Counted from the first letter of the stretch, positions 36,662-60,703 are shown. The stretch is DNA of 64,000 bases from Deferrivibrio essentukiensis (GCF_020480685.1 NZ_JAJAFU010000009.1:1-64000), one strand, 5' to 3'. Made by a program: numbers and translations. Notes: generated by a model not told the origin, from the letters alone.

Positions 36662-36691
36662 TATTCTCATTTATTACCAATAAGATAGCTT

Positions 36692-37873
36692 TTAGGTGTT
36701 ATCAGTTTCTGACAGTTTTCTGCAATTTTGTTTAGAGAATAAATCAGATATTTTACTTTTAGATAAATAATCTTTTAAATACTTTGCGTACCTGCGAAAG
36801 AAAGTTTCTAAATTTGTATGTCCTAATCTTTTAGCAATATCATGCACGTTATCACCTGCAAGAATACTTAAAATTGCATGCGTATGCCTCATTTGATACA
36901 TATTTCTGTATCTAAAGCCAAGTTTTTTTAAAGCAGGTTTCCAGTATAACTCTGCAATTTTATCAGGTCTTGTAAAAGGTTTATTGTACTGATTCACAAA
37001 AACATATTCACTTTTTAAATATGTATATTGTTTATGTTTGTGTATAATAGGTATTAAAATATCAGGCAAAACAATTTCCCTATGGCTTTCAACTGTTTTA
37101 GTTTTATTTTTTACTTGTCCATTAACAATAACATTATTAACTAAATAAGTATTTCTATTAAAATCAAAATTTTTCCATAGCATACCAATTATTTCCGACA
37201 ACCTCATCCCAGTAAAAAAACCTACAGCAAAAAATAAATGTAAATGTTGGTATTTTTGCTCAAAATGTTTTAAAATAGATATTACTTCTTCTGCAGTAAA
37301 AGGATCTATATCCACTTTTTCGTTTTTTAAACTTTTTACAAATTTAGCTAAATCTTTAGTCAGTAAATCTTCTTCAAAAGCAGATTTTAATATTAATCTG
37401 CACGGTATTAATAAATTATTTACAGTTTTATTTTTTTTGTTTTTTGCTAAATAAGTTATGTAATCTTCAACATCAATTTTAGTTATTTCATTTAATTTTT
37501 TATACCAAAATTCGCTTTCTTTAAGTTTTTTATAGCCTGTTATATACGCTCTTAAAGTACCTTTATCCATTAATTCAGCTTCTACTTTTTTTTGCGTGCG
37601 TACTAACCAGTTATTAGCGTACTCACAAAATAAATATTCTTTTTTTCTAATTATACCAAGTAATTCTAATTTTTTACTTTCAGGAAAATACTCCGCATAA
37701 TCTAAAGTATCTAATAGAATCTTTTGCTCTATTTCACTTGCTAAACGTTCAGCAAATCGCCAATTTTGTTTCGTATTATCAATTCCGAGATATTCCCTGC
37801 ATCGAACATTTTTGTAATAAAAATCTAATAAAAGCTTTCCTTTATCTGTTCTAACTTTTACAGTTTTTCTCAA
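36692..37873 (-). CDS. int: tyrosine recombinase (integrase)
   Basis: 393 residues. Arm-type DNA-binding part (about 1-60), SAM-like core-binding domain (about 80-175) and catalytic domain (about 190-370). The active-site residues are Arg224 in TGMRLSE, Arg329 in YQMRHTH, His352 in LGH and the nucleophile Tyr362 in FRRYAKY. The first His of the HxxR box is Tyr here, a substitution I believe is common in phage-type integrases. The start is TTG with AAAGG upstream. Direction and closeness to the tRNA 3' end mark the left end of the element. Confidence 0.93.
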   Translation of the reverse strand: MRKTVKVRTDKGKLLLDFYYKNVRCREYLGIDNTKQNWRFAERLASEIEQKILLDTLDYAEYFPESKKLELLGIIRKKEYLFCEYANNWLVRTQKKVEAELMDKGTLRAYITGYKKLKESEFWYKKLNEITKIDVEDYITYLAKNKKNKTVNNLLIPCRLILKSAFEEDLLTKDLAKFVKSLKNEKVDIDPFTAEEVISILKHFEQKYQHLHLFFAVGFFTGMRLSEIIGMLWKNFDFNRNTYLVNNVIVNGQVKNKTKTVESHREIVLPDILIPIIHKHKQYTYLKSEYVFVNQYNKPFTRPDKIAELYWKPALKKLGFRYRNMYQMRHTHAILSILAGDNVHDIAKRLGHTNLETFFRRYAKYLKDYLSKSKISDLFSKQNCRKLSETDNT

Positions 37874-37904
37874 TTTTCAACCTTTATATTTTCTTAAAAT
37901 AGTA

Positions 37905-38123
37905 TCAAAATTTCGCAATCTTATCAATTCTATTTATAATATCCTTTTTGAATAAAACTTTAGATTTTTTAGCAGTACCTAACTTAATATAATCTCTACC
38001 CGGCTTAAATTTACCCTCCACCATCCACTTTCTCAAAGTGCAAACCTTTAAATGTAAAATATTTGCTAACTCCACATAATTAATAAATTCATTATTTTCG
38101 TTTAAATTATTATTTATTTGCAT
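37905..38123 (-). CDS. excisionase-like helix-turn-helix protein
   Basis: 72 residues. The segment YVELANILHLKVCTLRKWM followed by KPGRDYIKLG fits a MerR/AlpA-type winged helix used by excisionases and directionality factors. It lies 31 bases upstream of the integrase on the same strand, the usual place for such a gene. DNA-binding role inferred from fold pattern and position; it could instead regulate integrase expression. Confidence 0.65.
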   Translation of the reverse strand: MQINNNLNENNEFINYVELANILHLKVCTLRKWMVEGKFKPGRDYIKLGTAKKSKVLFKKDIINRIDKIAKF

Positions 38124-38212
38124 ATATATATCCTTTAAAATATATATTTTTTATTATATACATTTATATATAACATAAAATGTCATTTTTTTAAAAAAAA
38201 ATATAAATAAAT

Positions 38213-38437
38213 TTAAATATATTTTTGTATTACGTGTACAGTTAAATTAGGGTACACTTGCCTAAGCGTTTCTATCAAAATATCTTTTTTATCTTTATTT
38301 GACAAATATTTATAATCTTTATTTAACTTAGCTTTAACTTTTTTTATGTATCTTTTTAATTCAATTTTTGTCGGTTTTTTATATTTTTTATTTTTCTCTA
38401 AAACAATATCAAAAATTAAATTAACATCGGCATACAT
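38213..38437 (-). CDS. small basic protein of unknown function
   Basis: 74 residues, very rich in Lys, starting at ATG 38437 with a good AAGGAG ribosome-binding site. The sequence looks all-helical with the pattern KKVKAKLNKDYKYLSNKDKK in the middle. No family recognised. It lies three bases after the ArdC-like gene stop, so it is probably expressed with it. Confidence 0.5.
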   Translation of the reverse strand: MYADVNLIFDIVLEKNKKYKKPTKIELKRYIKKVKAKLNKDYKYLSNKDKKDILIETLRQVYPNLTVHVIQKYI

Positions 38438-38440
38438 AAG

Positions 38441-39457
38441 TTATCTCCTTTTTACATATATTTTTTTATTTGTATCTTCTTTTTTTATTTGCCTGCCTGC
38501 CTCATTTAAATACTCAACAGCTTTTTGTGCTGCTTTGCTTGCTTGCAACAATATTTTTTTGTCGTTTTCCAGTATTTGTATCCAGCTTTTAATATAAGCA
38601 GCTTGATTTTGTATTACTTTTTGTATACCAAATTGCCAACACAAAAATGCTGATCCGAGTTCTGCGATGAGTTCTTCTTTTGCGTATTCTTGGGAACCAA
38701 AATCTAATCCTTCAGCTTTACGATTTAATCTACTGTCGTGTAAAGTACTATGTACAAGTTCATGAAAAAGTGTAGAGTAATATTCATCAATACCAACAAA
38801 AAGTGATTTTTTTGGTATTTGTATTGTATCTGTCGAAGGAATGTAACAAGCTCTACCTATTGCGGTATTTATTATTTTCGGTTTATTTTCGATCGAATTT
38901 AAAAAATTTTCTATTCTTTGTATTTTATCATCATCTTTTAAATTTGATATTTTAACTTCATTAATTTCCTCGTTAATTATTTTATCTTTTAAATTAGTTT
39001 GACAAACATTGAAAACGAAATGTCTTTTTAGCACTGGATATGTATATATATACATACCTTCTTTTTCTGAATGTTCTACTATATTTGCCTCAGGTCTTTT
39101 TTCTATAATTTCATCTTTTTCTTCAGCAGTTATCTCCTTTTCTTTTACGGTAAAATAGACAACAGGATGTGCTTTTTCACCTTTATTAACCATACCTTGT
39201 AGACTCTGGACTTGTACAAAACCCAAAAAATATTTAGATTCATAATTATTTTTTAAAATAGCATTATTAAGCAAAAGTACATTAATGCCTTTATACTGCT
39301 CTTTTGTTGTAAAGTTTGCAGGTAACCCAGTTTTAGCAAATGGACGTTGCCAAGGAATGTTACCCTCTTTTAAGCTCTGTAAAATTATATCAGTCACTTC
39401 TGCATATATACTTTTTTCAGTTTTATTATTGTTATTACTACTACTTAATTTAAACAT
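38441..39457 (-). CDS. ArdC-like antirestriction/zincin protein
   Basis: 338 residues from ATG 39457 (AGGAG six bases upstream). The N-terminal 150 residues match the ArdC single-strand-DNA-binding domain: WQRPFAKTGLPANF, YKGINVLLLNNA and FVQVQSLQGMVNKGEKAHPVVYF in pieces. The C-terminal half is a metallopeptidase-like domain with HELVH at 232-236 and a downstream acidic ligand in EELIAELGSAF. In plasmids, ArdC proteins protect incoming single-stranded DNA from restriction. The first domain in particular fits a conjugating element. Preceded by the shared upstream box. Confidence 0.85.
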   Translation of the reverse strand: MFKLSSSNNNNKTEKSIYAEVTDIILQSLKEGNIPWQRPFAKTGLPANFTTKEQYKGINVLLLNNAILKNNYESKYFLGFVQVQSLQGMVNKGEKAHPVVYFTVKEKEITAEEKDEIIEKRPEANIVEHSEKEGMYIYTYPVLKRHFVFNVCQTNLKDKIINEEINEVKISNLKDDDKIQRIENFLNSIENKPKIINTAIGRACYIPSTDTIQIPKKSLFVGIDEYYSTLFHELVHSTLHDSRLNRKAEGLDFGSQEYAKEELIAELGSAFLCWQFGIQKVIQNQAAYIKSWIQILENDKKILLQASKAAQKAVEYLNEAGRQIKKEDTNKKIYVKRR

Positions 39458-39468
39458 CACTAACTCCT

Positions 39469-39535
39469 TTTTTTGTTTTCAACAAATATACTGTGATTTT
39501 TAAGTAAAAAATTTTTAAATTATTAATAAATAATG
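39469..39535 (-). promoter_or_regulatory. shared upstream box, copy 1
   Basis: On the plus strand the core reads ATATACTGTGATTTTTAA, on the minus strand TTAAAAATCACAGTATAT, followed by GTTGAAAACAAAAAAAGGAG leading to the ArdC-like start. Four other copies exist in this element. The flank ATTATTAATAAATAAT is shared with copy 3. Confidence 0.6.
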
Positions 39536-39561
39536 GGAATTTCGTAGAGATTTTATTTTGC

Positions 39562-41166
39562 TTAATATCTTTTAGCTTTGTACTTATTTTTATTTGCAAA
39601 CAAATAAGTAAATATTTCTGTTTTTAGCTCTTTTTCGTTGCCTATATAATTTTTTATATTTTTATAAGAAAAATTTTGCTTTCTATATGCAAAGTTTTTT
39701 TGCATCTCCTGTTGTCTTTTAGCGTACAATTCTTTAATTTTTTTATAATATACTTGTTTAGTTATTTTTTTATTTTGTGTTATGTTATTAAAATTATTTA
39801 TACAAGCATTATTAAAAAGCAAGCTATAATCTGCAGCTTTTATCGGCTCTTCTTTTTCGATTTTTGTCAACAAATTATAGTATTTTTGCAGTTGCTCAAT
39901 ATTTATATTATTATTTATATTACCGATATTACCGTCTGTTAATAATGCACTAACATAATTATAATTATTTTCCTTTAAAACTTTTCTAACATTACTTATA
40001 TTTTTATATTTGCTTTTATTAAACGTATAAACATACTTAGTGTTGTTTATAATAAAAGTAAAACCTAACTTTACACTATTTTTTGTATGCCATTTTACTT
40101 TTATATTACTGTTAACATTTAAGTTGTCTAATAATTCTTTTTCGTTTTTACTAACATTAATTGCATAATTAACTATAATATTTAATGTTTTAAATATATC
40201 ACTATACTTGTTTTTATTATTAGTATTATTTGTTTTAGTAGTAGTTGAAAAATCTATTGTTTTTATTAATGTACTAACAAAATCAACATCTTTAGTTATA
40301 TTTAAGTGATCAAAATTTATATAACTTTTGCTATAATTAAAATTATAACAATAACGTATATACTCACGTAACAATTTGCTATTACTAAAATTTTTTAATT
40401 TTTCTATATCTTTTTGTTTAATTAATTCTAAAATTTCAAAATATTGTTCTTCATATATAAAATCAAATAATTTTTCATTTGCTAAATCATTAATCTTTTT
40501 TATTAACTTATTAATAAAACTATAATTTTTATAATTTTCAACATAATTAAATAACAAGTTTTCAAAATTTTCTATGTTACCAAATCTTTTTTTAATTTCA
40601 TTTTGTACATTAAAATCCGGGGTTGACTCGCTATTGCGTATTATTTGCCAAAAAAAGTTTTCCAGCTTTATTTTTAAATATTTATTTTTATTAACATAAT
40701 TTTCATTTTCAAAACTTATATTTTCTAAATTATATTTTTTTGATATATTTGCCAATAACTTACGTAATTGTATATATTTATTACCTAAATTTTTAGCTTC
40801 TTTTTTATTAAATAAAAAATGCAGGTGCGGGTGATCTATTTTATCTAAATGTGCAGCAATTTTAAAATTAGTTATTTGCAAAGTGCGTGCATACTGCTTA
40901 CCGTTTCTACGCTTTTCTGTGTAGCTATACCCGTTTTCAATTTGCTCTGTAAATTCATTTAAAATATTTTTCAGTACCTTTAAAATATCGTTTTTTGTCG
41001 TATAACCCGCTTTAAAAAAACTTAAATCGTTAAAACTAAATTTTAAATGCACAAAATTTTGCTTATGTTTTTTAAAGTCTTCTTTTGCAAAGCCAACTTC
41101 CTTTCCATAAGCATTATTTTTTTCTATATGTGCGTGCAAGTTCCAGTTAGTTTTCATTTTTGACAC
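39562..41166 (-). CDS. putative HUH-type relaxase
   Basis: 534 residues, very Asn/Lys rich. The only clear motif is at residues 106-117: HLDKIDHPHLHF, resembling the metal-binding motif III (HxD...PHxH) of MobV and related relaxases. A candidate nucleophile Tyr lies upstream, but several Tyr residues are possible. The remaining 400 residues are unlike anything I recognise and end in a Lys-rich helix. Position directly after the coupling-protein gene supports a transfer role. Start may be GTG 41166 or ATG 41157. Confidence 0.6.
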   Translation of the reverse strand: MSKMKTNWNLHAHIEKNNAYGKEVGFAKEDFKKHKQNFVHLKFSFNDLSFFKAGYTTKNDILKVLKNILNEFTEQIENGYSYTEKRRNGKQYARTLQITNFKIAAHLDKIDHPHLHFLFNKKEAKNLGNKYIQLRKLLANISKKYNLENISFENENYVNKNKYLKIKLENFFWQIIRNSESTPDFNVQNEIKKRFGNIENFENLLFNYVENYKNYSFINKLIKKINDLANEKLFDFIYEEQYFEILELIKQKDIEKLKNFSNSKLLREYIRYCYNFNYSKSYINFDHLNITKDVDFVSTLIKTIDFSTTTKTNNTNNKNKYSDIFKTLNIIVNYAINVSKNEKELLDNLNVNSNIKVKWHTKNSVKLGFTFIINNTKYVYTFNKSKYKNISNVRKVLKENNYNYVSALLTDGNIGNINNNINIEQLQKYYNLLTKIEKEEPIKAADYSLLFNNACINNFNNITQNKKITKQVYYKKIKELYAKRQQEMQKNFAYRKQNFSYKNIKNYIGNEKELKTEIFTYLFANKNKYKAKRY

Positions 41167-41167
41167 A

Positions 41168-42811
41168 CTAACTAAACATTTTATTTAATTTAAAATTATA
41201 AGTACTAGCAGTATCAACATGCAAGTACTGCGATTTACAATAAAATATTTTACCGTCTTTTATTATTATACATTGCCCATTAGAAAACTCCTGCAAATGT
41301 ATCGTACTTATACGATTTTGTTCTGTTGCTTTGTATGTTTTTTCATACGATGTAATATTTTTAAGCACATCGACACTGTTTGCTGTGTATTCCGTTCTTT
41401 CAAAAACCTTTTCTTTGCCGGCAAGTTGCTCTATTTTTTGCAAAGTATTCGGCTCCTTTGCTTTTAAAAATATTTGTGTATTAGTATTACTCAACACACT
41501 GTCTAAAAGTTTATCCTCGTCCCTGTTTTTTAAGCTTGTCAACTCTTGCATAGCTACAATTACTGCAACATTTAAGCTACGTGCTTGTTGCATTATAGTA
41601 GTTAATTCACTTGTAGAATATGCTCCAAATTCATCTAACATTAATAAAAACGGTATTTCCGTTCTTAAATCTAAATTTGTTAGCTGTGCAGCCGTGACCT
41701 GACGAAGCATAGTAATAATTAACTTTCCTAATTTTTTAAGTGTTTCATTAGACTTTTCAAGTGCAGGCAATGCAACGTACAAAATACTGTTATTTTTAAT
41801 AATTTCTTTTAGGTCAATATCAGCGTCATCACTATTGAATATATGCCCAAATTGGCTGCTTAAAATTTCCAAGCCATTTTTTAACGTGCTAAAAGCATAC
41901 TGATGTTGTCTAATCGTTTCTTCGTTAAAATCATTACTTTCATAATTTACGTGTCCCATCGCATCAAAATATTCCACAGTTAACTGTTTGATCGTTTTAT
42001 TTATTTTTTCATCTTTAAAATTTACATCGATACCTTTAAAATTATTTTTATATAAATTAACTAAATTGTTTAAATTACTTGTTATACTAATTATTTGTTG
42101 TATATTAATTTTTTGTTTAGCTATATCTCGCAAATACACTAAACAACTAAGTGCAATTTGCAGCAGACTTAAAGCATTGTCATAAAAATACTGATTATCA
42201 CCGCTTACCCCTTCAGGTACGATTAAATTAGTGAGTACTTCTTTCATTTCAATACTACTACCACTTAATATATTGATAGTATTAGTTTTTTGATTGCTAA
42301 TAAAATTTAATATAAATAAATCGTCTTCTCTGTTTTGCTTTTGTGCTATTGCTATAATTTTTTGTTGTATATCTACATCCGCTTTTCCATCCACAAAAAT
42401 TAAACCACCACCTTTGTCTACATGCTGACCGATTATATTTATAAAAGCCGTAGTTTTACCGCTTCCTGTTGTACCTAAAATTAGTGTATGTTTTGTTAAG
42501 TCGTTATAACTAAAATAATAATCTATTTCAGTTTTAGTTTTTAATATATCTAAATTTTTATTGTATAATGTTGCACTACCAAAAAAGATATCCCCTTTGC
42601 TATCAATATTTTGCAACTCTTCTTTTTTTAAATTTTTTATTTTTTTATAATATTTAAAAGCAATTAAATTTGTTAAGAAAAAGAAAAAAGACAGAGGTGT
42701 ATTTAATGTACCAACTGTAAGTATTGTATTAGCAACAAATAAAGCTCTGCGTTTTTTTAGTATATCATCAAAATTTTTTAGCTTTTCAGTTTCAATAATT
42801 TTATAACTCAT
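41168..42811 (-). CDS. VirD4/TraG-type coupling ATPase
   Basis: 547 residues. A hydrophobic N-terminus (about 22-52) with one or two membrane helices is followed by a RecA-like ATPase. Walker A is GTTGSGKT at 113-120, and Walker B is FLLMLDEFGAYS, with QQARSLNVAVIVAMQEL after it, the typical T4CP run. These proteins bring the relaxase-DNA complex to a type IV secretion channel. No VirB4 or other channel gene is visible, so the element is either mobilisable or its channel genes lie elsewhere. Confidence 0.85.
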   Translation of the reverse strand: MSYKIIETEKLKNFDDILKKRRALFVANTILTVGTLNTPLSFFFFLTNLIAFKYYKKIKNLKKEELQNIDSKGDIFFGSATLYNKNLDILKTKTEIDYYFSYNDLTKHTLILGTTGSGKTTAFINIIGQHVDKGGGLIFVDGKADVDIQQKIIAIAQKQNREDDLFILNFISNQKTNTINILSGSSIEMKEVLTNLIVPEGVSGDNQYFYDNALSLLQIALSCLVYLRDIAKQKINIQQIISITSNLNNLVNLYKNNFKGIDVNFKDEKINKTIKQLTVEYFDAMGHVNYESNDFNEETIRQHQYAFSTLKNGLEILSSQFGHIFNSDDADIDLKEIIKNNSILYVALPALEKSNETLKKLGKLIITMLRQVTAAQLTNLDLRTEIPFLLMLDEFGAYSTSELTTIMQQARSLNVAVIVAMQELTSLKNRDEDKLLDSVLSNTNTQIFLKAKEPNTLQKIEQLAGKEKVFERTEYTANSVDVLKNITSYEKTYKATEQNRISTIHLQEFSNGQCIIIKDGKIFYCKSQYLHVDTASTYNFKLNKMFS

Positions 42812-43598
42812 AAAGCACTTCCCCTGATTTTATTTTTTTATATACATTAATATATTTTTTTATTTGTGTATTTTTTTTAGTTGCTTTTAAACTTTTTAAA
42901 AACAAATATAAGTTATTATCGTTAAATAAATGTCTATGCTTAATTAAATTTATTTTTTTATCAGTATTTTCGAATATATAACCAAAATAAACATTGCTGT
43001 TATAAAAATCAGCATTTTTATTTAAAAATATTAAATCAGTAGTTCCGTATTTTTCGACATACTTATCAAAATTTGCTTTTAAACGTATTATGTCTGTTGT
43101 ATTAATGTTATTAATACTATTAATTAAATGATTTAATGTTTTATATGTTGTTGTTTTTTTATTATTTGCTGCATTGTCTACAAAAAATACATTTATAAAA
43201 AATTTGATTACTTGTTTAAATAAAAAATACAAAATTAATAAACTACACATAATTACTAAGTAAAATAATGCTATATATTTATTTACTAAAAAATAATTTA
43301 TATTAAAAAATTGATTATTATTAATAACAAAAAACAAATTATTATATAAGTTTACTGCACTTTCAAAAAAATTGAGTAAATGTAATTTTTTCAAAATAAC
43401 TAAAATGTTATATATTACAATAGTGTTTAATTTTATAAAATATATATAAAAAGAAGTTAGATAATTATTAACAAAAGGAATAAATTGATTAACATCAGTT
43501 TTAAACCCAACAAATAAAAAAAACTGCAATGCAACAATAATACCTACACTTAATTTGTACAAGTTTCCTTTTGCTGCATGTTTTTTTTCGTTGTACAT
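42801..43598 (-). CDS. membrane protein of unknown function, co-encoded with coupling ATPase
   Basis: 265 residues. Hydrophobic segments at about 16-34, 43-70 and 108-140 suggest three membrane helices, followed by a C-terminal cytoplasmic part of about 120 residues. No family recognised. Its end overlaps the coupling ATPase start by 11 bases, so the two proteins may interact, much as small membrane partners assist T4CPs in other plasmids. That comparison is inference from position alone. Preceded by upstream box copy 2. Confidence 0.55.
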   Translation of the reverse strand: MYNEKKHAAKGNLYKLSVGIIVALQFFLFVGFKTDVNQFIPFVNNYLTSFYIYFIKLNTIVIYNILVILKKLHLLNFFESAVNLYNNLFFVINNNQFFNINYFLVNKYIALFYLVIMCSLLILYFLFKQVIKFFINVFFVDNAANNKKTTTYKTLNHLINSINNINTTDIIRLKANFDKYVEKYGTTDLIFLNKNADFYNSNVYFGYIFENTDKKINLIKHRHLFNDNNLYLFLKSLKATKKNTQIKKYINVYKKIKSGEVLYEL

Positions 43599-43610
43599 TA
43601 CTTATAACTC

Positions 43611-43680
43611 CCTTTTTTTTTGTTTTCAACTAATATACTGTAATTTTTAAATGGAATTTTTATAAATGATTGATAGTATT
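43611..43680 (-). promoter_or_regulatory. shared upstream box, copy 2
   Basis: Core on the plus strand ATATACTGTAATTTTTAA, preceded by TTTTTTTGTTTTCAAC as in copies 1 and 4. The distal flank TTTTTATAAATGATTGATAG is identical to that of copy 4. It lies between the 180-residue gene and the membrane protein and points toward the latter. Confidence 0.6.
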
Positions 43681-44221
43681 ATAAATGTCGACTGAAAGCA
43701 GGGGATGGACGTTTTGCTTGTTCTATTTCTTTTTCTTTTTCTATTTTTAATAGTTCATCAAGTATTTCGTCAGCTAACTCAGTATTTTTATAATTTTTTG
43801 CTATTGCTTTTAATACTTGTACAGTATCTTTATTTTGCTTTTTGTTATTAAGTAAATTATTTGTAATAAAAAACATATTTAAACCGTAGCTAAAATATTG
43901 AAAAGTATTAACAATATTAAAAAAATTAGATATATTTTTACTATGTATCGTGTTTACAATAATATTTTCAAAAAAATAGTCTTTACTAACATTTTGAAAT
44001 AGCTTTTTCATTTCAGTTTTAACATCTTTATCTTTATTGTATTTATTTTTTATATATAAAAAAAACTCGTTAATAAACTTTAATTGCTCATCTTTTTTAA
44101 TATTAACAACAACATATTTAAAATTAGATAAAATTAAAATAACATCTTCTTTGCTTAATTTATTAACTTCTTTTACAAAATTTAAATGTATTATTTTTGC
44201 AAAATTAGTATTACTTTGCAT
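43679..44221 (-). CDS. hypothetical protein (element-specific)
   Basis: 180 residues, probably all-helical, Asn/Lys/Phe rich, with a charged C-terminal helix (ILDELLKIEKEKEIEQAKR). AGAGGTG lies upstream of the ATG. No signal peptide, membrane segment or recognised domain. Follows the 330-residue coiled-coil gene by 13 bases and is likely co-transcribed with it. Confidence 0.5.
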   Translation of the reverse strand: MQSNTNFAKIIHLNFVKEVNKLSKEDVILILSNFKYVVVNIKKDEQLKFINEFFLYIKNKYNKDKDVKTEMKKLFQNVSKDYFFENIIVNTIHSKNISNFFNIVNTFQYFSYGLNMFFITNNLLNNKKQNKDTVQVLKAIAKNYKNTELADEILDELLKIEKEKEIEQAKRPSPAFSRHL

Positions 44222-44234
44222 ATGTCACCTCTTT

Positions 44235-45227
44235 TTATTTTAATTTAAAAGAAATTTTAGGAATATTAATTTTTTGCTGTTTTTGTTGTTTTTGCACTTT
44301 TTTTTCTTGTTTTTGTTGTTTTTCTTGTTTTTTTTGCAAACTCTGCAATATATTTATTTTTTTACTTTTTGCTACACTATTGCTATTTGTAAATCGTTTT
44401 ATTTCTTTTTTTAACTGTCTGTCTGTTTTAATTAATAATGCGTTATTATGTATATGCTTCAAAACATCGTTAAAAGTTAGTGTATTTTTTTGTTTTTTTT
44501 GTATTTCGTGCATATTTTTAATTTGTTTTACAATAAGTGGATTTTCTAAATTTAAAATAAATTTTTCATGTTTTTTTGTAGTTTTTTCTAGCATTTCAGT
44601 TGCTTTTTTGAATTTGTCAAACTTTTCTTTTTGCTTCTTTTTGTCGTATTCTTTTTTAATTTCCATCAATACTTTTAAAAACAACATTAATTGCATAAAT
44701 TGTAGCATTAGAGTTAATTGTGTAGCTTTAACGGTTAAGTCAACAACAGGATTGCTTGTATGAATATTTATGTTTAAATGGTTTAGTGTATGTTTTTCAA
44801 CTTTTTCTAATACATTTTCAATTTGCATATTCACATTGTTTTTTTTAGTAAAATCTTTTTCTAAATTTAAACCTAAATTTGTTTTTGCATACTCTATATA
44901 GTCTTTGTATTGCTCATCATTTATATTATTTTCGATTAAAAAATGTTTAATATTATCGTACAAGTCCTTGTCATTACTAAATTTTACCTCTTCCGGCAAA
45001 TTTAGTCTTAACCTGATATTATCGTCTTCGTTAACATTATCAGCTAACATGCCCAGCAAATGCTCAAAAAAATTATATTTTTTTTCTTCTTCTTGCTCTT
45101 CTGCTTCTTCTTTAGTAATATCCTCTTCTATTTTTTGCCAAAAATCATTCAAACTAATTTCTACTCTATTATCAATATGTTCAGCTTGCAGTTCCAATTC
45201 TTTTTCGTTAAGTTCTATAGTTTCCAT
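44235..45227 (-). CDS. hypothetical coiled-coil protein with Gln/Lys-rich tail
   Basis: 330 residues. The N-terminal 60 residues are strongly acidic (runs of Glu), the middle has one hydrophobic segment near 165-190 (VVDLTVKATQLTLMLQFMQL and LMLFLKVLM), and the C-terminal half is a long Lys/Glu coiled coil. It ends with repeated KQEK/KQQK units. The hydrophobic part could be a membrane segment or an amphipathic helix. Family unknown. Polar charge segregation suggests a structural or DNA/nucleoid-linked role, but this is a guess. Confidence 0.5.
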   Translation of the reverse strand: METIELNEKELELQAEHIDNRVEISLNDFWQKIEEDITKEEAEEQEEEKKYNFFEHLLGMLADNVNEDDNIRLRLNLPEEVKFSNDKDLYDNIKHFLIENNINDEQYKDYIEYAKTNLGLNLEKDFTKKNNVNMQIENVLEKVEKHTLNHLNINIHTSNPVVDLTVKATQLTLMLQFMQLMLFLKVLMEIKKEYDKKKQKEKFDKFKKATEMLEKTTKKHEKFILNLENPLIVKQIKNMHEIQKKQKNTLTFNDVLKHIHNNALLIKTDRQLKKEIKRFTNSNSVAKSKKINILQSLQKKQEKQQKQEKKVQKQQKQQKINIPKISFKLK

Positions 45228-45244
45228 AGTTTAACCCTTCTTTT

Positions 45245-45514
45245 TTATTTTTTGCGTTTTAAAACAAAATTTTCATACGCTTTTTTGTACATGTCGGGGT
45301 TTTCTAGTGCCCATTTCAAATCATCCTGAAGCCACTGCTCTTGTTCTTTTTTTTCCGCTTCTGTTAACCTGCCTTCCCTATCTCTTTTTTTCCAGTCTTT
45401 GTACTCTTCATCTTGCTGTTTCAAAAAAGCCTTGAAGTCATCCGAAATTTTTTTGTAATACGCTGTGTCTTCCCTTAATGTTTTTTTGATGCTACCTATC
45501 AACCAATTAAACAT
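45245..45514 (-). CDS. small charged helical protein
   Basis: 89 residues with unusually many charged and aromatic residues (DDFKAFLKQQDEEYKDWKKR, later EQEQWLQDDLKWALENP). Less Asn-rich than its neighbours and different in composition from them. The ATG at 45514 has AGAGGTG upstream. No family recognised. Upstream box copy 5 lies 33 bases before the start, inside the end of the preceding gene. Confidence 0.5.
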   Translation of the reverse strand: MFNWLIGSIKKTLREDTAYYKKISDDFKAFLKQQDEEYKDWKKRDREGRLTEAEKKEQEQWLQDDLKWALENPDMYKKAYENFVLKRKK

Positions 45515-45533
45515 ATTTGCACCTCTCTTTTCT

Positions 45534-46385
45534 TTATCTGCTCATACAATATACTGTAGTTTTACCTTTATTTTTCTGTAAATTATTATCATTATTAAAT
45601 AATTCAGCCTCTTTAATTTGTTGGTTGTATGTTTGCAACTCTTTAGTTAAACTAAATTTTTTGTCGATATAGTTATATTCTTTTAACTTTTTAATAATAG
45701 TATTTAACTTGTTTTTAACTTTTATGTTATTTACATTGTTTAAATAAACATTAAACAAAAAAGCTTCTCTTTCCTCTTTTGATATATTTATAAAAAAATT
45801 AGTAAAAAAAGTATTATTAGTATTTAATTTGTGTAATGTAGTTAATACAGTTTTAATATCTGTAAAATCAATATTATTATTACTATTTGTATCAAAAAAA
45901 TCAACAGAGGCAATGCTATCGTCATAGCTTACATAGTCGTTATAATACTGTGCCGCTGCCGACAAGTCTGCTGTGTAATTAATATTTTTACTTGTGTTTT
46001 TAATATTACTTTTATTTAATCCGACGGCAAATATGCTTTGTATGTTTATGTCATTACCAATTAACAAATTGATTTTTTGATCCAAAAGATTTGTTATTTT
46101 AGCATATTTTTTATTATTAATATTATTAGCATAATCGTTGACATCGACATTAACACTATTAATAATATTAAGTTCATTTTCAGTTAGGTTTAATCTTTTT
46201 TTCGCAATATTGCTTAAATAAGTTTTTAAAGCATTACTATAATTAATATTTCCGCTAACAGATTCTAACATAAAGAGAAAATCAACAATATATTCTATAT
46301 GTATATTTTTTGCATAATGTAGAAATAACAAAGAACGCAATGCATCTTTTTCGTGTTTAGCCACTTTTATTGTTTTTAAATACAT
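45534..46385 (-). CDS. hypothetical Asn-rich protein (element-specific)
   Basis: 283 residues, extremely rich in Asn, Lys and Ile, with segments such as NNINNKKYAKITN. Probably cytoplasmic; no membrane segment or known motif seen. GGAGGTAAAAA precedes the ATG. The 1.1-kb non-coding region with iteron-like repeats lies directly upstream, so its transcription may respond to replication control. Function unknown. Confidence 0.5.
   Translation of the reverse strand: MYLKTIKVAKHEKDALRSLLFLHYAKNIHIEYIVDFLFMLESVSGNINYSNALKTYLSNIAKKRLNLTENELNIINSVNVDVNDYANNINNKKYAKITNLLDQKINLLIGNDINIQSIFAVGLNKSNIKNTSKNINYTADLSAAAQYYNDYVSYDDSIASVDFFDTNSNNNIDFTDIKTVLTTLHKLNTNNTFFTNFFINISKEEREAFLFNVYLNNVNNIKVKNKLNTIIKKLKEYNYIDKKFSLTKELQTYNQQIKEAELFNNDNNLQKNKGKTTVYCMSR
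45547..45566 (-). promoter_or_regulatory. shared upstream box, copy 5
   Basis: Core on the plus strand ATATACTGTAGTTTTACC, matching copies 1-4 over the first ten bases. Unlike them it lies within a coding sequence (the end of the 283-residue gene), upstream of the 89-residue gene on the minus strand. Confidence 0.45.
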
Positions 46386-46737
46386 TTTTTACCTCCTTTT
46401 TATATACTAAATATATTTTGTTATAGAAAATCATAATAACATCCTATTCAGGTATATAACATGAAAAAAATTTCAAAAAACTAAAAAATAAAAAAAATAA
46501 ACTTTTTTTTCTTTTTTTTATCAATAATTTATAGAGGTTAATTTAATTAAATGAAATTTTTTATAATTAAAAAAATAGAATATAAAAAATTATATAACTT
46601 TTTTTTTTGAAAAATATAGAGAGGGCTTATAGAAAAAATATATACATATAAAGTTATATATTATTAAATCAATTTAAATATAATATACTAATTTAATTTA
46701 GTATATTTTTAATATATTTTGTAAAAACAAAAAAAAA

Positions 46738-47165
46738 GGTGAGAAAAAGTTAGAAAAAAATTCTCACCTTGAAAATCCAATAATAACAATGATTTAGCTT
46801 AAAAAAAAAGCAAAAGGTGAGAAAAGTGAGAAAAGGTGAGAAAACAATTCTCACCTTAAAAATTCTTAGTTATCAATAAGTTAACCCTAAAAAATAGGCA
46901 AGGTGAGAAAAATTTGGCTATTTTTTACATTTTATATACTCAAAATATATGATAATACAACACTGTTTTAAAATACGGTATCTGGAAACACTTTTTATTG
47001 TATAAATTACTAAAAAATTCTCACCTTTTATAATAAATAATTGATATTATTGGAAAAATACTGATTTTAAAATTCTCACCTTTTCTCACCTGACTACGTA
47101 AATTATTGATAGATAACAACTTCGAGGTGAGAAATTTTGACAGTAAAATTCTCACCTTTCTCACC
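46738..47165. repeat. iteron-like array of twelve GGTGAGAA motifs
   Basis: Exact 8-mers: plus orientation at 46738, 46816, 46835, 46902 and 47126; minus orientation (TTCTCACC) at 46761, 46848, 47018, 47073, 47083, 47149 and 47158. A near-copy lies at 46825. Two neighbouring pairs are 9 or 10 bp apart, one helical turn. Three opposed pairs could form hairpins (46738/46761, 46835/46848, 47126/47149). I did not notice clusters of this motif elsewhere in the window. Confidence 0.8.
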
Positions 47166-47185
47166 TTTTAAAAAGTACTACAGCA

Positions 47186-47303
47186 CACAAAAAAGGCAAA
47201 AAGCCCGATTAAGAAGGAAAGGGGACTTTGTGTCGACAGCTCTAAGATATTGACAACATTACAGTTTCTGCATCAGGGAGCAACTTTTTTCTTTAACCGG
47301 GAA
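47186..47303. repeat. conserved ~100-bp intergenic repeat, copy 1
   Basis: Shares ordered blocks with copies 2 and 3: TTGTGTCGACAG, TTGACAACATTAC and TCAGGGAGCA, followed by a T-run and TTTAACCG. TGTCGACA is a perfect palindrome. The left flank, AAAAAAGGCAAAAAGCCCG, is shared with copy 2. Confidence 0.8.
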
Positions 47304-47379
47304 AAATTTTTTAAGTAAAAAGTCCATTCAAAAAAAAGAATGAATAAAAAGTACAATATTTTTTTTGAGTTTTTTAGCA

Positions 47380-47491
47380 CAAAAAAGGCAAAAGCCCGAT
47401 TAAAAAGGAAATCGGACCTTGTGTCGCCAGTTTTAAATTGTTGACAACATTACACTTTTGAGTCAGGGAGCAGCTTTTCTTTGTTTAATCG
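47380..47491. repeat. conserved ~100-bp intergenic repeat, copy 2
   Basis: Contains GGACCTTGTGTCGCCAG, GTTGACAACATTAC, GAGTCAGGGAGCA and GTTTAATCG. On the minus strand its end forms a hairpin CCGATT-TCCTTTTT-AATCGG followed by a T-rich run, which could terminate transcription of the replication gene or of a small RNA covering the repeat. Confidence 0.8.
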
Positions 47492-47524
47492 TAAAAAAAC
47501 AAAAAAAAGGCTGATAACAAATAG

Positions 47525-49291
47525 TTACCAACCGTTTTTTGTTATAGATTCCTCTAAATCATTATTAGTATTATAAAAATCATAATCTTCAAAATCTTCT
47601 ACATTATTTATAGTATTTAAACAGTTTATTGTATTGTTTTCAACATTATTATTATTATTATTATTATCGTTATCTATATTTATACCTAGTTCAATTAATG
47701 TATTTTTAATTACATTTATTTCAAAAAGTACACCGAAAACACTTACACCGCTTACTTTATATGTTTTGCTTTCGTCGCAGCTTAAAATATCAAATATTTC
47801 TGTTTTTCTGTATCTTGCCTTTTTGAATTCTGATTCATCAAATTCTGTTTTTAATATATATTCAAAAACTTTAGTTAATCTTTTTATGATAAGTTTGTTT
47901 TTATAAAGTATAAAGTCATCTAAAATATTCTCATATTTTAATATAATTTTACTAAGTGTTGCGTATGTTGCATTATATTCGAAATTTGTTTCTTTAAGTT
48001 TTAAGTATTCCGCTACATTATAAATTATATAATAAAATTTTTGTTTTATTAATGTATCTAAATTTAATGCTTTTATTTTATATTTATTGTTAAATTGCTC
48101 TAAAAAATCTGTTGCTTTATTATAAGCTTCGTGTTTACCTAAATTTATATAATACTTAATTAATTTGTTAATATAGTTATAAATATAATGCTTAACAACT
48201 AAATAAAATTTGTACCTATCTTTTTTAAATAATTCGATATTACTAAGTTTTTTTGTATTTTTTATTTTAATAACAGAAACTCGATCCAAAATTTGCTCGT
48301 CAACTCCGTTTGTAAAGCTTTCGGAAAACTCTTTGCTTAAAAATAACTTAGCATAAACAGGTACTACACTGCGTAGCTGATTTTTACTTTCAACTCTAAA
48401 GTAATTTGTTAAATCTTTCATCTCATGTGGAAAATATTTAAATTCGTCGACCACCAGCACAAATGTATTTAAAAAATCTTGAGGAGACAAACCTGAAGGC
48501 TGCTTTGTTAAATCTACATAATTTATTTCATGTGCTAAACCTATCTCAAATAGTATATTTTTAAAAAAAGATTTACCCCATTCCGCCGGTGCGTTTACAT
48601 ATAAAAAAGATTTGCGTCGGTTTTCGGTAAATCTGCAAGCAACTAAAAACTGCATAATTTCGTCTAAATGCTCAAAATGATTTTTATAAGCTGCTATTAT
48701 TTCATTGTATTCTTTTTTTGTTATATTAATGTTTAATTTAAACGTATTAATTTTTATTGTATTTAATATAATATGTAATACAGTATCTTTTTTGTACAAT
48801 TGCACTTTAGTAGCAAAAGGATCGATTTCGTATTGTATCGTTTCGACATAATTTTGTATTAATAACTCTTTCAAAAAATTTTCATCGACATTATTTTTTA
48901 ATAAATAGCGTCGGTTTAGCACGTCAATTAATTCGTTTTTATTTTTAATAATTTTTAAGTCGTTACTTATGCTATCTAAAAATAAATATTTATTTTGTGT
49001 AATAAATACTCTGCTTGCAATATTATTCATCACAGCTGCTTGTCGGTTGTGTGTATATATACTATCGTTTTTAAACTTTAAACCAACTTTACAAATCCAT
49101 TCATTTTGTTTGCTAAACCAGTTGCCAAAATTTTCAGTTATAACTACATCGTTTAATTTATTTATAGTATTATTATTGACATTTTGTGTTGTATTTGCTA
49201 AATTACAATTAGCGTTATTTACGTTTGTTTTTGCAATTTTTTCAGCAGGCTGCACTACATTTTGTTGTGTAGCCTTCTCTTTTTTTGACAT
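47525..49291 (-). CDS. SF3-like helicase/replication protein
   Basis: 588 residues with Asn-rich ends. The central ATPase has a P-loop NAPAEWGKS (233-241), Walker B VLVVDEF (278-284), a motif C-like segment AKLFLSKEFSES (314-325) and an arginine-finger DRV (336-338). This is the superfamily 3 pattern of plasmid and phage replication helicases related to D5/RepA primase-helicases. No primase domain is obvious in the first 200 residues. Adjacent to the iteron-like array, so probably the replication initiator or helicase of the element. AGAGGTG ribosome-binding site. Confidence 0.7.
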   Translation of the reverse strand: MSKKEKATQQNVVQPAEKIAKTNVNNANCNLANTTQNVNNNTINKLNDVVITENFGNWFSKQNEWICKVGLKFKNDSIYTHNRQAAVMNNIASRVFITQNKYLFLDSISNDLKIIKNKNELIDVLNRRYLLKNNVDENFLKELLIQNYVETIQYEIDPFATKVQLYKKDTVLHIILNTIKINTFKLNINITKKEYNEIIAAYKNHFEHLDEIMQFLVACRFTENRRKSFLYVNAPAEWGKSFFKNILFEIGLAHEINYVDLTKQPSGLSPQDFLNTFVLVVDEFKYFPHEMKDLTNYFRVESKNQLRSVVPVYAKLFLSKEFSESFTNGVDEQILDRVSVIKIKNTKKLSNIELFKKDRYKFYLVVKHYIYNYINKLIKYYINLGKHEAYNKATDFLEQFNNKYKIKALNLDTLIKQKFYYIIYNVAEYLKLKETNFEYNATYATLSKIILKYENILDDFILYKNKLIIKRLTKVFEYILKTEFDESEFKKARYRKTEIFDILSCDESKTYKVSGVSVFGVLFEINVIKNTLIELGINIDNDNNNNNNNVENNTINCLNTINNVEDFEDYDFYNTNNDLEESITKNGW

Positions 49292-49305
49292 AAGTGCACC
49301 TCTTT

Positions 49306-49524
49306 TTATAAAATATTTAAGTTTTGTAACTGCTTGTAATTATTATCAAAATACTCTTTTAAAGCATCCTCAATTACAGCTGAAGCTGACTTGTTAATTA
49401 GCGCACTTAATATTTTTAATTTTTTGTAAGTGGTTAAACTTAAAGATATCCCGGTATACTTAATGTCGTTTTTAATGTCGTTTTTAATTTCATTTTTGTT
49501 TGTTTTTTGCAGTTTGCAACTCAT
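49306..49524 (-). CDS. ribbon-helix-helix DNA-binding protein
   Basis: 72 residues. After a Lys/Asn-rich lead with repeated IKND units comes ISLSLTTYKKLKILSALINK followed by SASAVIEDALKEYF, the strand-helix-helix pattern of CopG/Arc proteins. AAGGAGG lies upstream. Located just ahead of the replication gene, it probably regulates that gene or copy number, as CopG does in small plasmids (inference). Confidence 0.7.
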   Translation of the reverse strand: MSCKLQKTNKNEIKNDIKNDIKYTGISLSLTTYKKLKILSALINKSASAVIEDALKEYFDNNYKQLQNLNIL

Positions 49525-49526
49525 TG

Positions 49527-49628
49527 TTACCTCCTTTTTTTGTTATATATATTATTTGTTATATATATTATTTGGTATATAACAGGGGTTTCAAATTTTT
49601 TAAAAAAAAAATTTAATTTTTTTAACAT
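49527..49628 (-). CDS. possible 33-residue leader or small protein
   Basis: ATG 49628 is preceded by GGAAGGTGATAACTA, a reasonable ribosome-binding site. The frame runs 33 codons and stops inside the ribosome-binding site of the ribbon-helix-helix gene. The peptide is mostly Lys, Phe, Ile, Tyr and Asn, as any AT-rich frame would be. It may be a translational leader, or chance. Confidence 0.2.
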   Translation of the reverse strand: MLKKLNFFFKKFETPVIYQIIYITNNIYNKKRR

Positions 49629-49649
49629 TAGTTATCACCTTCCTTTTAT

Positions 49650-49702
49650 ACATATACTGTAATTTTTAAGTGAAAAAGCTTTAACTTATTAATAAATAAT
49701 TA
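49650..49702 (-). promoter_or_regulatory. shared upstream box, copy 3
   Basis: Core on the plus strand ATATACTGTAATTTTTAAGT; the distal flank TTATTAATAAATAATT matches copy 1. It lies 126 bases before the ribbon-helix-helix gene and 22 bases before the possible leader frame, which gives that short frame some support. Confidence 0.55.
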
Positions 49703-49800
49703 GAATATTAAAAAGGGAATGGGACCTTGTGTCGACAGTTTTAAGATATTGACAACATTACTTTTTTTGAGTCAGGGAGCAACCTTTTTTGTTTAACCGT
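49703..49800. repeat. conserved ~100-bp intergenic repeat, copy 3
   Basis: Contains GGGACCTTGTGTCGACAG, AGATATTGACAACATTAC, GAGTCAGGGAGCAAC and GTTTAACCG, nearly identical to copy 1 in the core. It lies 43 bases beyond the stop of the ParA-like gene. The 318-base gap 49525-49842 contains only this repeat, box copy 3 and the possible leader frame. Confidence 0.8.
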
Positions 49801-49842
49801 AAAAAAAAATTTTTGAGTTTAAATTACAAAAAAAAGGGGAGA

Positions 49843-50517
49843 TTACTCCCCTGCTTGAAATATTTTATCGAACTGATCAAAGTAATGTTTATACATGTAG
49901 GAAGCATAAGCCTTTTCGATTACATGTAAATTTTTAGTGTTATTAATATCAGTATAATGTATTTTATTTTCCAATACCTTTTTAACAGGACGTTTATTTA
50001 AATCGTGCAATTTAAAAAAAGTATATTCTGTATCGTAGTTTACTTCGCCAAAATATTCATTTTTAAATACATGTGCAGGCTGATTAAATGCAAAAATATT
50101 TTTTAAGTATTTTACAGTATTTTCGTCTGCCGTTACTATACTAAACACATTAATATTAAATAAATCATTTAAAATTGTTAATACATTTAATTCTTTTAGA
50201 AACGCCAAAAAGCTTTTGCTAATGCTTGTACCTACGTCAACCGCTATATTTTTATTATTATTTTTAGTTACTAATTCGACAAAATCGTAAAATTTATCTT
50301 TATCAATATCGTCCAGCTCCGGATTAACAATATCAACTGTAATAACTTTATTATTAAACCATTCTGACAACGTGTTTTGTTCTGCATCTACATCAAAGCC
50401 TATAACATCTACCTTCCTCTTATACATATAATATTGCATTAGCATATTGCTTATTAAGCTTTTACCTACACCGCCTTTGCCTTGCATAACTAAGTTTAAG
50501 TTAAATTTTTTGCTCAT
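49843..50517 (-). CDS. ParA/MinD-superfamily ATPase, TraL-like
   Basis: 224 residues with the deviant Walker A QGKGGVGKS (residues 12-20) followed by VIGFDVDAEQNTLSEWF. The short form, the MQGKGGVGKS start and FDVDAEQ segment resemble the TraL group of conjugative plasmids more than chromosomal Soj. TraL/ParA proteins position plasmid DNA or transfer complexes. The gene lies 30 bases after the 271-residue partner gene, with a 10/11-bp tandem array further upstream. Confidence 0.8.
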   Translation of the reverse strand: MSKKFNLNLVMQGKGGVGKSLISNMLMQYYMYKRKVDVIGFDVDAEQNTLSEWFNNKVITVDIVNPELDDIDKDKFYDFVELVTKNNNKNIAVDVGTSISKSFLAFLKELNVLTILNDLFNINVFSIVTADENTVKYLKNIFAFNQPAHVFKNEYFGEVNYDTEYTFFKLHDLNKRPVKKVLENKIHYTDINNTKNLHVIEKAYASYMYKHYFDQFDKIFQAGE

Positions 50518-50547
50518 AGTTCTTACCTCCTTTTATTTTATTTTATT

Positions 50548-51363
50548 TTATAAATTATATGCAATACGTTGGTATTGCTGTATTGTATCCAGTGAATAGT
50601 AATCAATCGGGGTTAAAGCATCCCATTTCAAATATATTGTATTATTTTTAATTCCGACAGTTAATTGCTTATTTAAAAACTCGGTATTTAATAAAATTGT
50701 ATCTTCCAAATTTTTAGTTAATTGAAAATGAAATGGAAATCTGACTTTTACTACTTCATTATTTACTACAGTTTCGATATAACCTTTTAAAATATTATTA
50801 TAATATTCCAGTTGCTTTTGTTTATATGTGCTTAAATTACTTTCTTGTTTTAATTTTGTAATTTTGCTTTTAATTTCATTTTTATCTAAATTTAGATATT
50901 CTTCAAATTTATCAAACGTAATAACATAAAAATCATCTTCTTTTTTAATAAATTCATTATTATCAATATGTTGTATAGTTTTTACATTATTTGGTAATTC
51001 AATTTGTACATTATTATTATTATCATTTTGTACATTATTATTATCATTATTATTATTTTGTACATTATTATCATTATTTATATTTTGTTTTTTAGTTTTC
51101 TTTTTAGTACCAGTTCGCAACAAAAAGGCTTCATATTCAGCAGGATAAAACTTTTTTAAAAAATTAGAATAACTCATTATATTGCTTTTTATTTTATAAG
51201 CTTTACATATTACTTCCAGTTGCAAATGTAACGGCAAATTCGATTCTAATAATTTTAAAATATCTTCTGTTTTTACAGTTTTAAAAATAAATCTTTTTTT
51301 CTTTTTGTTTTGCTCACCATATTCTATTTTTACTTCGTCGATTAATTTTTCTAGGTTATCCAT
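50548..51363 (-). CDS. hypothetical partner of the ParA-like ATPase, with Asn repeat linker
   Basis: I start at ATG 51363, preceded by AAGGAGG, giving 271 residues; an ATG nine codons earlier lacks a site. Residues about 1-85 are a basic helical domain (KKKRFIFKTVKTEDILKLL, SYSNFLKKFYPAEYEAFL). A linker of alternating Asn, Asp, Val and Gln follows, then a C-terminal domain of about 130 residues. A two-domain DNA-binding adaptor encoded just before a ParA would fit a centromere-binding protein, but no ParB motif is seen. Confidence 0.5.
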   Translation of the reverse strand: MDNLEKLIDEVKIEYGEQNKKKKRFIFKTVKTEDILKLLESNLPLHLQLEVICKAYKIKSNIMSYSNFLKKFYPAEYEAFLLRTGTKKKTKKQNINNDNNVQNNNNDNNNVQNDNNNNVQIELPNNVKTIQHIDNNEFIKKEDDFYVITFDKFEEYLNLDKNEIKSKITKLKQESNLSTYKQKQLEYYNNILKGYIETVVNNEVVKVRFPFHFQLTKNLEDTILLNTEFLNKQLTVGIKNNTIYLKWDALTPIDYYSLDTIQQYQRIAYNL

Positions 51364-51373
51364 TTTTACCTCC

Positions 51374-51440
51374 TTTTTTGTTTTCAACATATATACTGTA
51401 ATTTTAAAGTAGAATTTTTATAAATGATTGATAGTATTTT
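51374..51440 (-). promoter_or_regulatory. shared upstream box, copy 4
   Basis: Core on the plus strand ATATACTGTAATTTTAAAGT, preceded by TTTTTTGTTTTCAAC. The distal flank TTTTTATAAATGATTGATAG is identical to copy 2. Points toward the ParA operon on the minus strand. Confidence 0.6.
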
Positions 51441-51446
51441 ATAATA

Positions 51447-51642
51447 TTTGATAAAGTTTTATAGAGTTTTATAGAGTTTGATAAAGTTTTATAAGAGTTT
51501 TATAGAGTTTTATAGAGTTTGATAAAGTTTTATAAGAGTTTTATAGAGTTTTATAGAGTTTTATAAAGTTTTATAAGAGTTTTATAGAGTTTTATAAGTC
51601 TTTTATAAGTCTTTTATAAGTCTTTTATAAGTCTTTTATAAG
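51447..51642. repeat. tandem array of nineteen 10/11-bp units
   Basis: Units are TTTTATAGAG, TTTGATAAAG, TTTTATAAAG, TTTTATAAGAG and TTTTATAAGTC; the lengths sum exactly to the 196 bases of the array, the last unit being 9 bases. A 41-bp higher-order group recurs, and the distal end is a uniform run of TTTTATAAGTC. The spacing matches one DNA turn. Located directly upstream of the ParA operon promoter region, where plasmid centromeres often lie. Confidence 0.85.
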
Positions 51643-51662
51643 AAAAATAAATTGAAACTATC

Positions 51663-51707
51663 CGCAAAAAAAATTTGCGTGTATTAACTACTTTGCTTTC
51701 GCAAAGT
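51663..51707. terminator. two small hairpins after the 83-residue gene
   Basis: CGCAAA/TTTGCG (51663-51679) and ACTTTGC/GCAAAGT (51690-51707). On the minus strand the second has a GAAA tetraloop closed by C-G, and the first contains a T-run. Neither is a strong intrinsic terminator. The gap 51364-51734 otherwise holds box copy 4 and the tandem array. Confidence 0.3.
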
Positions 51708-51734
51708 TTGTATTATTTCCTGCAGAATTAGTTT

Positions 51735-51986
51735 TTATTCAAACCAACTCCTATTATTTACGTTAAAATTCTGAATTTTTATGTCTAGTTCATTAAGATA
51801 AATATTACCATTTTCAGTTATTGCAACATTAAGTAAAGCTTTAAAAGGGAAAGCATGTTCCGTTTCAACTCCATCACCTTTTTTTAAATCACTTGAAGAT
51901 CCCCATTGTAAATAAACAAAAACATAGCCTTTTATTTCCACTAAAATTAAATCATTTTTAATATTCAATATTAATATCTTTAACAA
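51735..51986 (-). CDS. small protein of unknown function, start uncertain
   Basis: The longest frame begins at TTG 51986; a GTG at about residue 16 is another choice, and neither has a good ribosome-binding site. Up to 83 residues. The region VYLQWGSSSDLKKGDGVETEH and the C-terminal NVNNRSWFE look like a real folded protein, with a more balanced composition than the neighbours. No family recognised. Overlaps the end of the next gene by 29 bases. Confidence 0.4.
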   Translation of the reverse strand: MLKILILNIKNDLILVEIKGYVFVYLQWGSSSDLKKGDGVETEHAFPFKALLNVAITENGNIYLNELDIKIQNFNVNNRSWFE

Positions 51987-52215
51987 AATAGTGAGTTGCT
52001 AAGCAATCTAATTCATTTATATAATTCTCTATTGTATAAGCAAAAAGTTCTTTATGAATGGAATAATTATAAAGTTTATTTTTTATTTTATCCTTAGTTT
52101 CTTGAATAGTATAAAAAAAGTCACTAAATGCTTTAACTACCTCAATCACATATTCTTCAATTTCAACCCTATTAATATTAAATGTATTTTCATTAATATG
52201 AGTGTACTTATTCAA
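51958..52215 (-). CDS. small helical protein, possibly truncated at its 5' end
   Basis: 85 residues from TTG 52215, no ribosome-binding site. The frame stays open upstream into the IS21-like end at 52254-52290 with no in-frame ATG. The insertion may therefore have removed the true start, leaving a 3' part. Sequence is helical (EEYVIEVVKAFSDFFYTIQE). It overlaps the 83-residue gene, an arrangement seen in toxin-antitoxin and toxin-immunity pairs, but no such family is recognised. Confidence 0.35.
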   Translation of the reverse strand: MNKYTHINENTFNINRVEIEEYVIEVVKAFSDFFYTIQETKDKIKNKLYNYSIHKELFAYTIENYINELDCLATHYFVKDINIEY

Positions 52216-54421: not shown

Positions 54422-54436
54422 AACTTCACCTTCATT

Positions 54437-55882: not shown

Positions 55883-55898
55883 GATTAGGAGGTTACAA

Positions 55899-56321: not shown

Positions 56322-56449
56322 AACTGAATAACTCTACTAAAATTTGCAAATTAAAATATGGGTAGCTAGGATTTAACTACTTATAGATACTCACTAATTG
56401 GATTGAGAGATGTTTTAAGAAACTTAAAGATAATATCAGAACTAGGTGA

Positions 56450-56612: not shown

Positions 56613-56696
56613 CTACCGTTATTTTTATAGAAAAAAAATTATGTTATGTTAAAATGTATCTGAATGTTTAAAGTGTTATTTTAACGGAGACTTTCG

Positions 56697-59930: not shown

Positions 59931-59934
59931 CTTA

Positions 59935-60702: not shown

Positions 60703-60703
60703 T

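Follow-up and report, generated by a model that had tools for sequence, protein, structure and literature searches.

The locus beside the tRNA-Sec gene of Deferrivibrio essentukiensis raises the question of what kind of mobile element carries genes for integration, replication and DNA transfer on one strand, and of where such an element ends. A sequence-only reading of the window (the whole stretch of DNA analysed, 64,000 nucleotides on contig C9) had taken positions 36692-52215 to be an integrative element with its own replication, partition and transfer modules but no channel genes, and had suggested that it belongs to a family particular to the phylum. We find that this DNA is part of a 33.2-kb island in the 3' end of the tRNA-Sec gene. 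The element is real and well bounded, probably functional as judged from its sequence, and about twice the reported size. We consider it likely that it is an integrative mobilisable element (IME) that brings along a conditional replicon and a coupling protein of its own. The attachment sites, an empty site, a relaxase signature, a coupling protein, an SF3 helicase with iterons and a genome free of VirB4 matches over the cut-off support the earlier description of it as integrative, probably mobilisable, self-replicating and devoid of a channel. The proposed partition module is not supported.

The intact tRNA-Sec gene, which served as the integration target, lies at 36564-36661 on the plus strand (ARAGORN; Rfam RF01852, 61.6 bits), and the stop codon of the integrase gene is 30 bp from it. 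The left attachment site, attL (36635-36665, plus strand), is the 31-bp 3' end of this gene. Within the 64-kb window there is no other att copy of the tRNA-Sec 3' end, which is why the element had been left unclosed. A whole-genome search locates attR, with the identical 31 bases, at C9:69852-69882, which is 5.9 kb past the end of the window. The element is therefore 33,248 bp long including both repeats, with a GC content of 26.0%, and the proposed right end at 52215, giving 15.5 kb, had missed half of it. The impression of a very AT-rich block was correct, given 19-31% GC per kb versus approximately 33% in the flanking chromosome (24.0% over 36635-52215).

An empty site is present in another genome of the same genus (G013), where an intact tRNA-Sec gene runs uninterrupted into the DNA found on the attR side. 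Specifically, the G013 DNA directly 3' of tRNA-Sec matches the 103-bp stretch that begins at attR and extends to the right (74.5%, E 9.6e-12), and the DNA to the left of tRNA-Sec also matches the left side in G013 (76.5%). The repeat pair thus reflects an insertion rather than a chance repeat. Entry occurred by recombination within the 31 bp of the tRNA 3' end and left the tRNA-Sec gene intact. Outside the element, a type I restriction-modification operon (L027:8006-13301; HsdM and HsdS by sequence) begins approximately 120 bp beyond attR on the right. Different genes occupy this position in G013, so insertions other than this element have entered the site as well.

The genes listed in the earlier reading, from the integrase to the TraL/ParA-like ATPase, are all on the minus strand and lie where that reading had placed them. 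The first encodes a tyrosine integrase of 393 aa (36692-37873; Arm-DNA-bind_2 2.6e-20, Phage_integrase 1.2e-16). The small helix-turn-helix protein that follows (37905-38123, minus strand) had been listed as an excisionase, an assignment that we leave as unconfirmed and putative, given that weak HTH/MerR scores (0.015) and its position are what stand behind it. A left arm-type site, TTCTGACAGTTTTCTG (36707-36722, plus strand), lies 41 bp inside attL, and a tandem pair of the same site marks the right end (C9:69706 and 69717).

The same genome holds a second, sister element with the same ends at tRNA-Pro(GGG), whose left end is at C8:77510-78676 (L003) and whose right end is at C16:9881-10058 (L092), with the interior split over contigs. 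It also has the arm-type site (C8:77517), and its counterpart of the putative excisionase is 82% identical. The right ends of the two elements are 81% identical over 166 bp, and that of the sister element finishes with 25 bp copied from the 3' end of tRNA-Pro; SbcC/SbcD-like genes are found nearby (L092:3622-8117). The DNA identity between the two integrase genes is 96-100% over codons 1-60 and 90% over codons 61-90, and then drops abruptly to 52-64% over the next 90 codons. No other proteins of the tRNA-Sec element were found in the assembled parts of its sister. Their sequences indicate that the two elements have a common integrase arm domain, diverged core domains and differing known interiors.

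A decayed relative occurs in another genus of the same order (G010, contig C1), in which the same arm-type sites and a broken integrase adjoin a 62-bp exact copy of tRNA-Ala(GGC) (L094:660-1620 and L093:1387-1460). With ends at tRNA-Sec, tRNA-Pro and tRNA-Ala, the conserved ends have therefore used three different tRNA genes. In the well-preserved pair, the arm domain is common and both the core domain and the target differ. By analogy with lambda-type integrases, we infer that the core domain sets the target. This integrase pair, with a common arm domain and an exchanged core domain, is the most surprising part of our findings and amounts to a natural domain-swap experiment for target choice.

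The left backbone spans 36.7-51.6 kb, and its genes named below are all on the minus strand. A small protein of 74 aa (38213-38437) is followed by an ArdC-like antirestriction or single-stranded DNA-binding protein with a zincin domain (38441-39460), an identity that is well borne out by matches to ArdcN (1.2e-25) and MPTase-PolyVal (9.3e-38). Next is a protein of 534 aa (39562-41166) carrying the motif HLDKIDHPHLHF, which had been proposed as a relaxase. At full length it matches no family in the profile libraries (Pfam, PHROG and NCBIfam). When its N-terminal 175 aa are used, residues 85-147 match PF03432 Relaxase (2.6e-4) with 21.7 bits, below the Pfam cut-off of 24.6, and HLDKIDHPHLHF falls inside the matched stretch; the VirD2 score is 0.035. 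A structure predicted for the N-terminus from one sequence reached a mean pLDDT of 65.9 (35-42 for the other four models), and the top Foldseek matches to that poor model have low TM-scores and rmsd values mostly of 12-15. We keep the protein as a candidate divergent relaxase of the HUH type, MOBP-like in its sub-threshold nuclease signature, which agrees with the proposal as far as that signature goes and stops short of a canonical MOB family. A search of the intergenic regions for oriT returned candidate regions with repeats only and no proven nic site. This counts against a mobilisable element, as do the sub-threshold relaxase score and the uninformative structure comparison.

The coupling ATPase of the earlier reading (41168-42811) is readily recognised as a type IV coupling protein, and a TrbC (IncI)-like one (NCBIfam NF041447 TrbC, 3.7e-54; TraG-D_C, 2.7e-13). 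It scores 184 bits versus the 800-bit equivalog cut-off of NF041447, and its sequence marks it as a relative rather than a member of the TrbC (IncI) coupling proteins. Among its plasmid relatives, the best score (6e-52, approximately 30% identity) belongs to a protein encoded on Deferribacter desulfuricans pDF308, a plasmid typed as MPF_I (PLSDB). A predicted membrane protein of 265 aa (42801-43598) opens the coupling protein-relaxase operon, and beyond it lie four genes without known function (180, 330, 89 and 283 aa; 43679-46385).

Further along the backbone are a ribbon-helix-helix (RHH) protein of 72 aa (49306-49524), for which the match to PF21432 (1.9e-4) agrees with the original call at a level below the cut-off, and a ParA-fold ATPase (49843-50517). 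The latter had been read as part of a partition module. However, its match to conjugal TraL (NCBIfam PRK13886, 2.8e-15) is much stronger than its match to plasmid ParA (5.4e-3), with 56 bits versus the 360-bit cut-off of PRK13886 and approximately 29% identity to plasmid TraL, so we do not count a partition system. No ParB-type partner of the ATPase was recognised, although the RHH protein and repeat arrays are nearby. Another protein (50548-51390) is encoded in the TraL operon, and comparison gave no support to a TraK-like nature.

The replication protein is an SF3-like helicase of 588 aa (47525-49291), in keeping with the first description, and its closest matches are to phage proteins (phrog_35045 'DNA primase', 2.2e-32; phage primases to 4e-27). 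Organised repeats between the genes had also been reported and are real; they include a cluster at 46738-47165 with 12 exact copies of GGTGAGAA/TTCTCACC in both orientations, none elsewhere in the element and a chance mean of 0.012. Lying beside the SF3 gene, this array looks like an iteron origin, and the two together would constitute a conditional replicon. A different repeat, R, of approximately 100 nt, occurs on the minus strand in copies A (47190-47312), B (47381-47508) and C (49700-49815), with 87% identity between B and C across 101 bp. Terminator-like sites follow the SF3 and TraL genes, and all three copies lie behind such sites. We considered a known RNA, but repeat R has no Rfam match and its folding energies are ordinary relative to shuffled sequences (z -0.9 to -1.5). 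There is no convincing match to it elsewhere among 51 genomes of the phylum, and five matches to its pattern in viral contigs all represent one and the same coding segment in a single phage gene, have another spacer and were set aside as chance. Upstream of the TraL operon, a tandem array of AT-rich units of approximately 10 bp (TTTTATAGAG; 51416-51643) is possibly a bent oriT or a centromere-like region. A candidate operator, GGTATATAACA, has exact copies at two places only.

A further sequence, AAAATTACAGTATATTTG, occurs at six sites in the element with up to two mismatches, each on the coding strand and upstream of a gene or operon. Two of the sites precede the genes for ArdC and the 265-aa protein (hence the coupling protein-relaxase operon), two precede the operons of RHH-SF3 and of TraL, and two belong to genes of the right module (66105 and 67472). 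In 36.6 kb of chromosome there is no occurrence with up to three mismatches, a limit at which shuffled versions of the element average 0.7. We infer that this is a promoter-like or operator box. One copy overlaps the listed start at 51390, and the TraL-operon protein therefore probably starts at ATG 51363. Because left and right operons have the box in common, the right module (C9:66105-69645, plus strand) belongs to the backbone. This module encodes seven small proteins without a recognised family, several of which have signal- or membrane-like segments as judged by eye, and GC content is 23% over C9:65485-69851.

Between the two backbone parts lies approximately 13 kb of cargo (51.7-65.5 kb), including type III restriction, an SNF2 helicase and nucleases, which was absent from the earlier description. 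Its first gene (51735-52215, minus strand), once counted as an unrecognised element protein, is instead the frameshifted remnant of a pAgo-associated nuclease (PF18166; PADLOC Aga_Nuclease, profile positions 111-193 and 194-267). It is N-terminally truncated, and no Argonaute gene was recognised beside it. Next on the minus strand (52462-55162) are a cpYpsA SLOG protein, a NucS_C/DUF5655 protein (PADLOC PDC-S18, 4e-139), an HTH-S24 repressor and two unassigned proteins. The plus strand (55364-64000) encodes an SNase, the SNF2 helicase, a DUF4391 protein and a type III methyltransferase, followed by the type III restriction subunit, whose gene extends past the window to C9:65484. With this cargo of defence genes, type III restriction among them, the element may pay its host.

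Given these parts, the element has its own integration and excision genes and att repeats at a specific site, as expected of an IME, and lacks the VirB4 ATPase and channel genes expected of an integrative and conjugative element (ICE): as first noted, no such family is found among the scanned element proteins. Moreover, the host genome (a draft of 64 contigs, searched with one Pfam model) contains no VirB4 (PF12846) over the cut-off, so a helper would either have to be supplied from outside or have escaped the draft assembly; that no helper channel was found in it counts against our reading. The only match there, a weak one in an open frame of the same 725-aa length in G012, was rejected as a VirB4; two related genomes do have a PF12846 VirB4. 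The retention of a coupling protein, TraL and an RHH protein, which are typical of conjugative systems, together with one frameshifted cargo gene, could suggest an ICE that lost its channel genes and is now a decaying island. We consider this unlikely, though it fares best among the alternatives. No channel pseudogene was recognised among the element proteins, the reading frames of the genes for transfer and replication are uninterrupted, the promoter-like boxes are conserved across operons, and the decayed relative in G010, with its broken integrase, looks very different.

As one segment combines iterons with genes for an SF3 protein and a ParA-fold ATPase, the locus might alternatively be an integrated plasmid that captured an integrase, became fixed in the chromosome through it and retains its transfer genes as vestiges. 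This seems somewhat less plausible still. The first 20 kb of the element have no DNA-level match among the plasmids of PLSDB, the ParA-fold protein is TraL-like, and the same integration ends enclose quite different known interiors, as in true integrative elements. Across the element stretches tested at the DNA level, neither a plasmid nor a phage matched. Degenerate patterns, sensitive to close relatives only, found neither the relaxase nor the coupling protein in public genome contigs, and likewise none of SF3, coupling protein or TraL in viral contigs.

An SF3 protein closest to phage primases, a tRNA site and defence cargo, which P4-like elements also carry (PMC8628076), could instead point to a P4-like phage satellite that replicates from its iterons and moves in the capsid of a helper phage. 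We regard this as improbable. Of the P4-like set of Psu, Sid, delta, epsilon, AlpA and alpha (PMC8628076), a Pfam comparison of the element proteins finds none and recovers the tyrosine integrase only, Sid being without a Pfam model. In addition, the element encodes a relaxase-like protein as well as a coupling protein, and its 33 kb contrast with P4-like elements, very few of which are larger than 15 kb (PMC8628076). Least probable of all is a self-transmissible element in which membrane-like proteins of the left operon and the right module, the latter sharing the promoter-like box with the transfer operons, form a minimal channel with the coupling protein and without VirB4.

For an IME with its own coupling protein and replicon, the parts suggest the following course of events. 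The integrase, acting at arm-type sites at both ends with the small excisionase, would excise a circle, which would replicate for a time once the SF3 helicase opens the DNA at the GGTGAGAA iterons. The relaxase, with the RHH and TraL-like proteins as accessories, would nick a putative oriT, and the element's own TrbC-like coupling protein would feed the strand into the type IV channel of a co-resident conjugative element, most plausibly an MPF_I-like one. In the recipient, ArdC would protect the incoming strand before the tRNA-Sec site is re-entered. Through the common promoter-like box, the operons for accessory functions, transfer and replication could be expressed jointly with those on the right-hand side.

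The suggestion of a family specific to the phylum holds for the ends, which recur in the same genome and in another genus, and does not extend to the complete gene set. The SF3 helicase, the relaxase candidate and a right-module protein were found in none of 50 other genomes of the phylum, and the complete set is therefore a single known case. Each function is of a known kind and the combination is new. The element adds to the known mobilisable islands a well-bounded one from Deferribacterota with its own coupling protein and a phage-type replicon, on which a defence cassette of type III restriction, an SNF2 helicase and nucleases travels. It also tests how far such hitch-hikers go in bringing their own transfer parts.

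It is useful to compare this arrangement with established systems. Canonical IMEs do not usually have a coupling protein (PMC5704250), which counts against our reading. Replication functions and defence cargo have already been described in IMEs, as have coupling proteins in those of streptococci (PMC5704250). The present element resembles IMEs in having its own integration functions, a tRNA 3'-end target, a relaxase candidate, no channel, and defence or restriction cargo. Several IMEs likewise have replication functions, and some putative streptococcal IMEs have a coupling protein (PMC5704250). However, the streptococcal proteins are FtsK-like TcpA, whereas the one here belongs to the VirD4 superfamily and is TrbC-like. 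The element also differs in its divergent relaxase candidate, its Deferribacterota host and its SF3-iteron replicon, whereas Rep_3, RepA/RepC, replisome organisers and rolling-circle initiators are those listed for IMEs (PMC5704250). With IncI/MPF_I systems and pDF308 it has a TrbC-type coupling protein in common, but it lacks their channel genes, and the protein itself is distant (approximately 30% identity; 184 versus 800 bits). The ParA-fold ATPase is like the IncP-type TraL of conjugal regions (PRK13886, 2.8e-15), although it reaches 56 versus 360 bits and is found here beside an RHH protein and an uncharacterised protein. Finally, SF3-type replication, tRNA integration and defence cargo are features held in common with P4-like satellites, but in place of capsid-hijacking genes this element carries genes for transfer.
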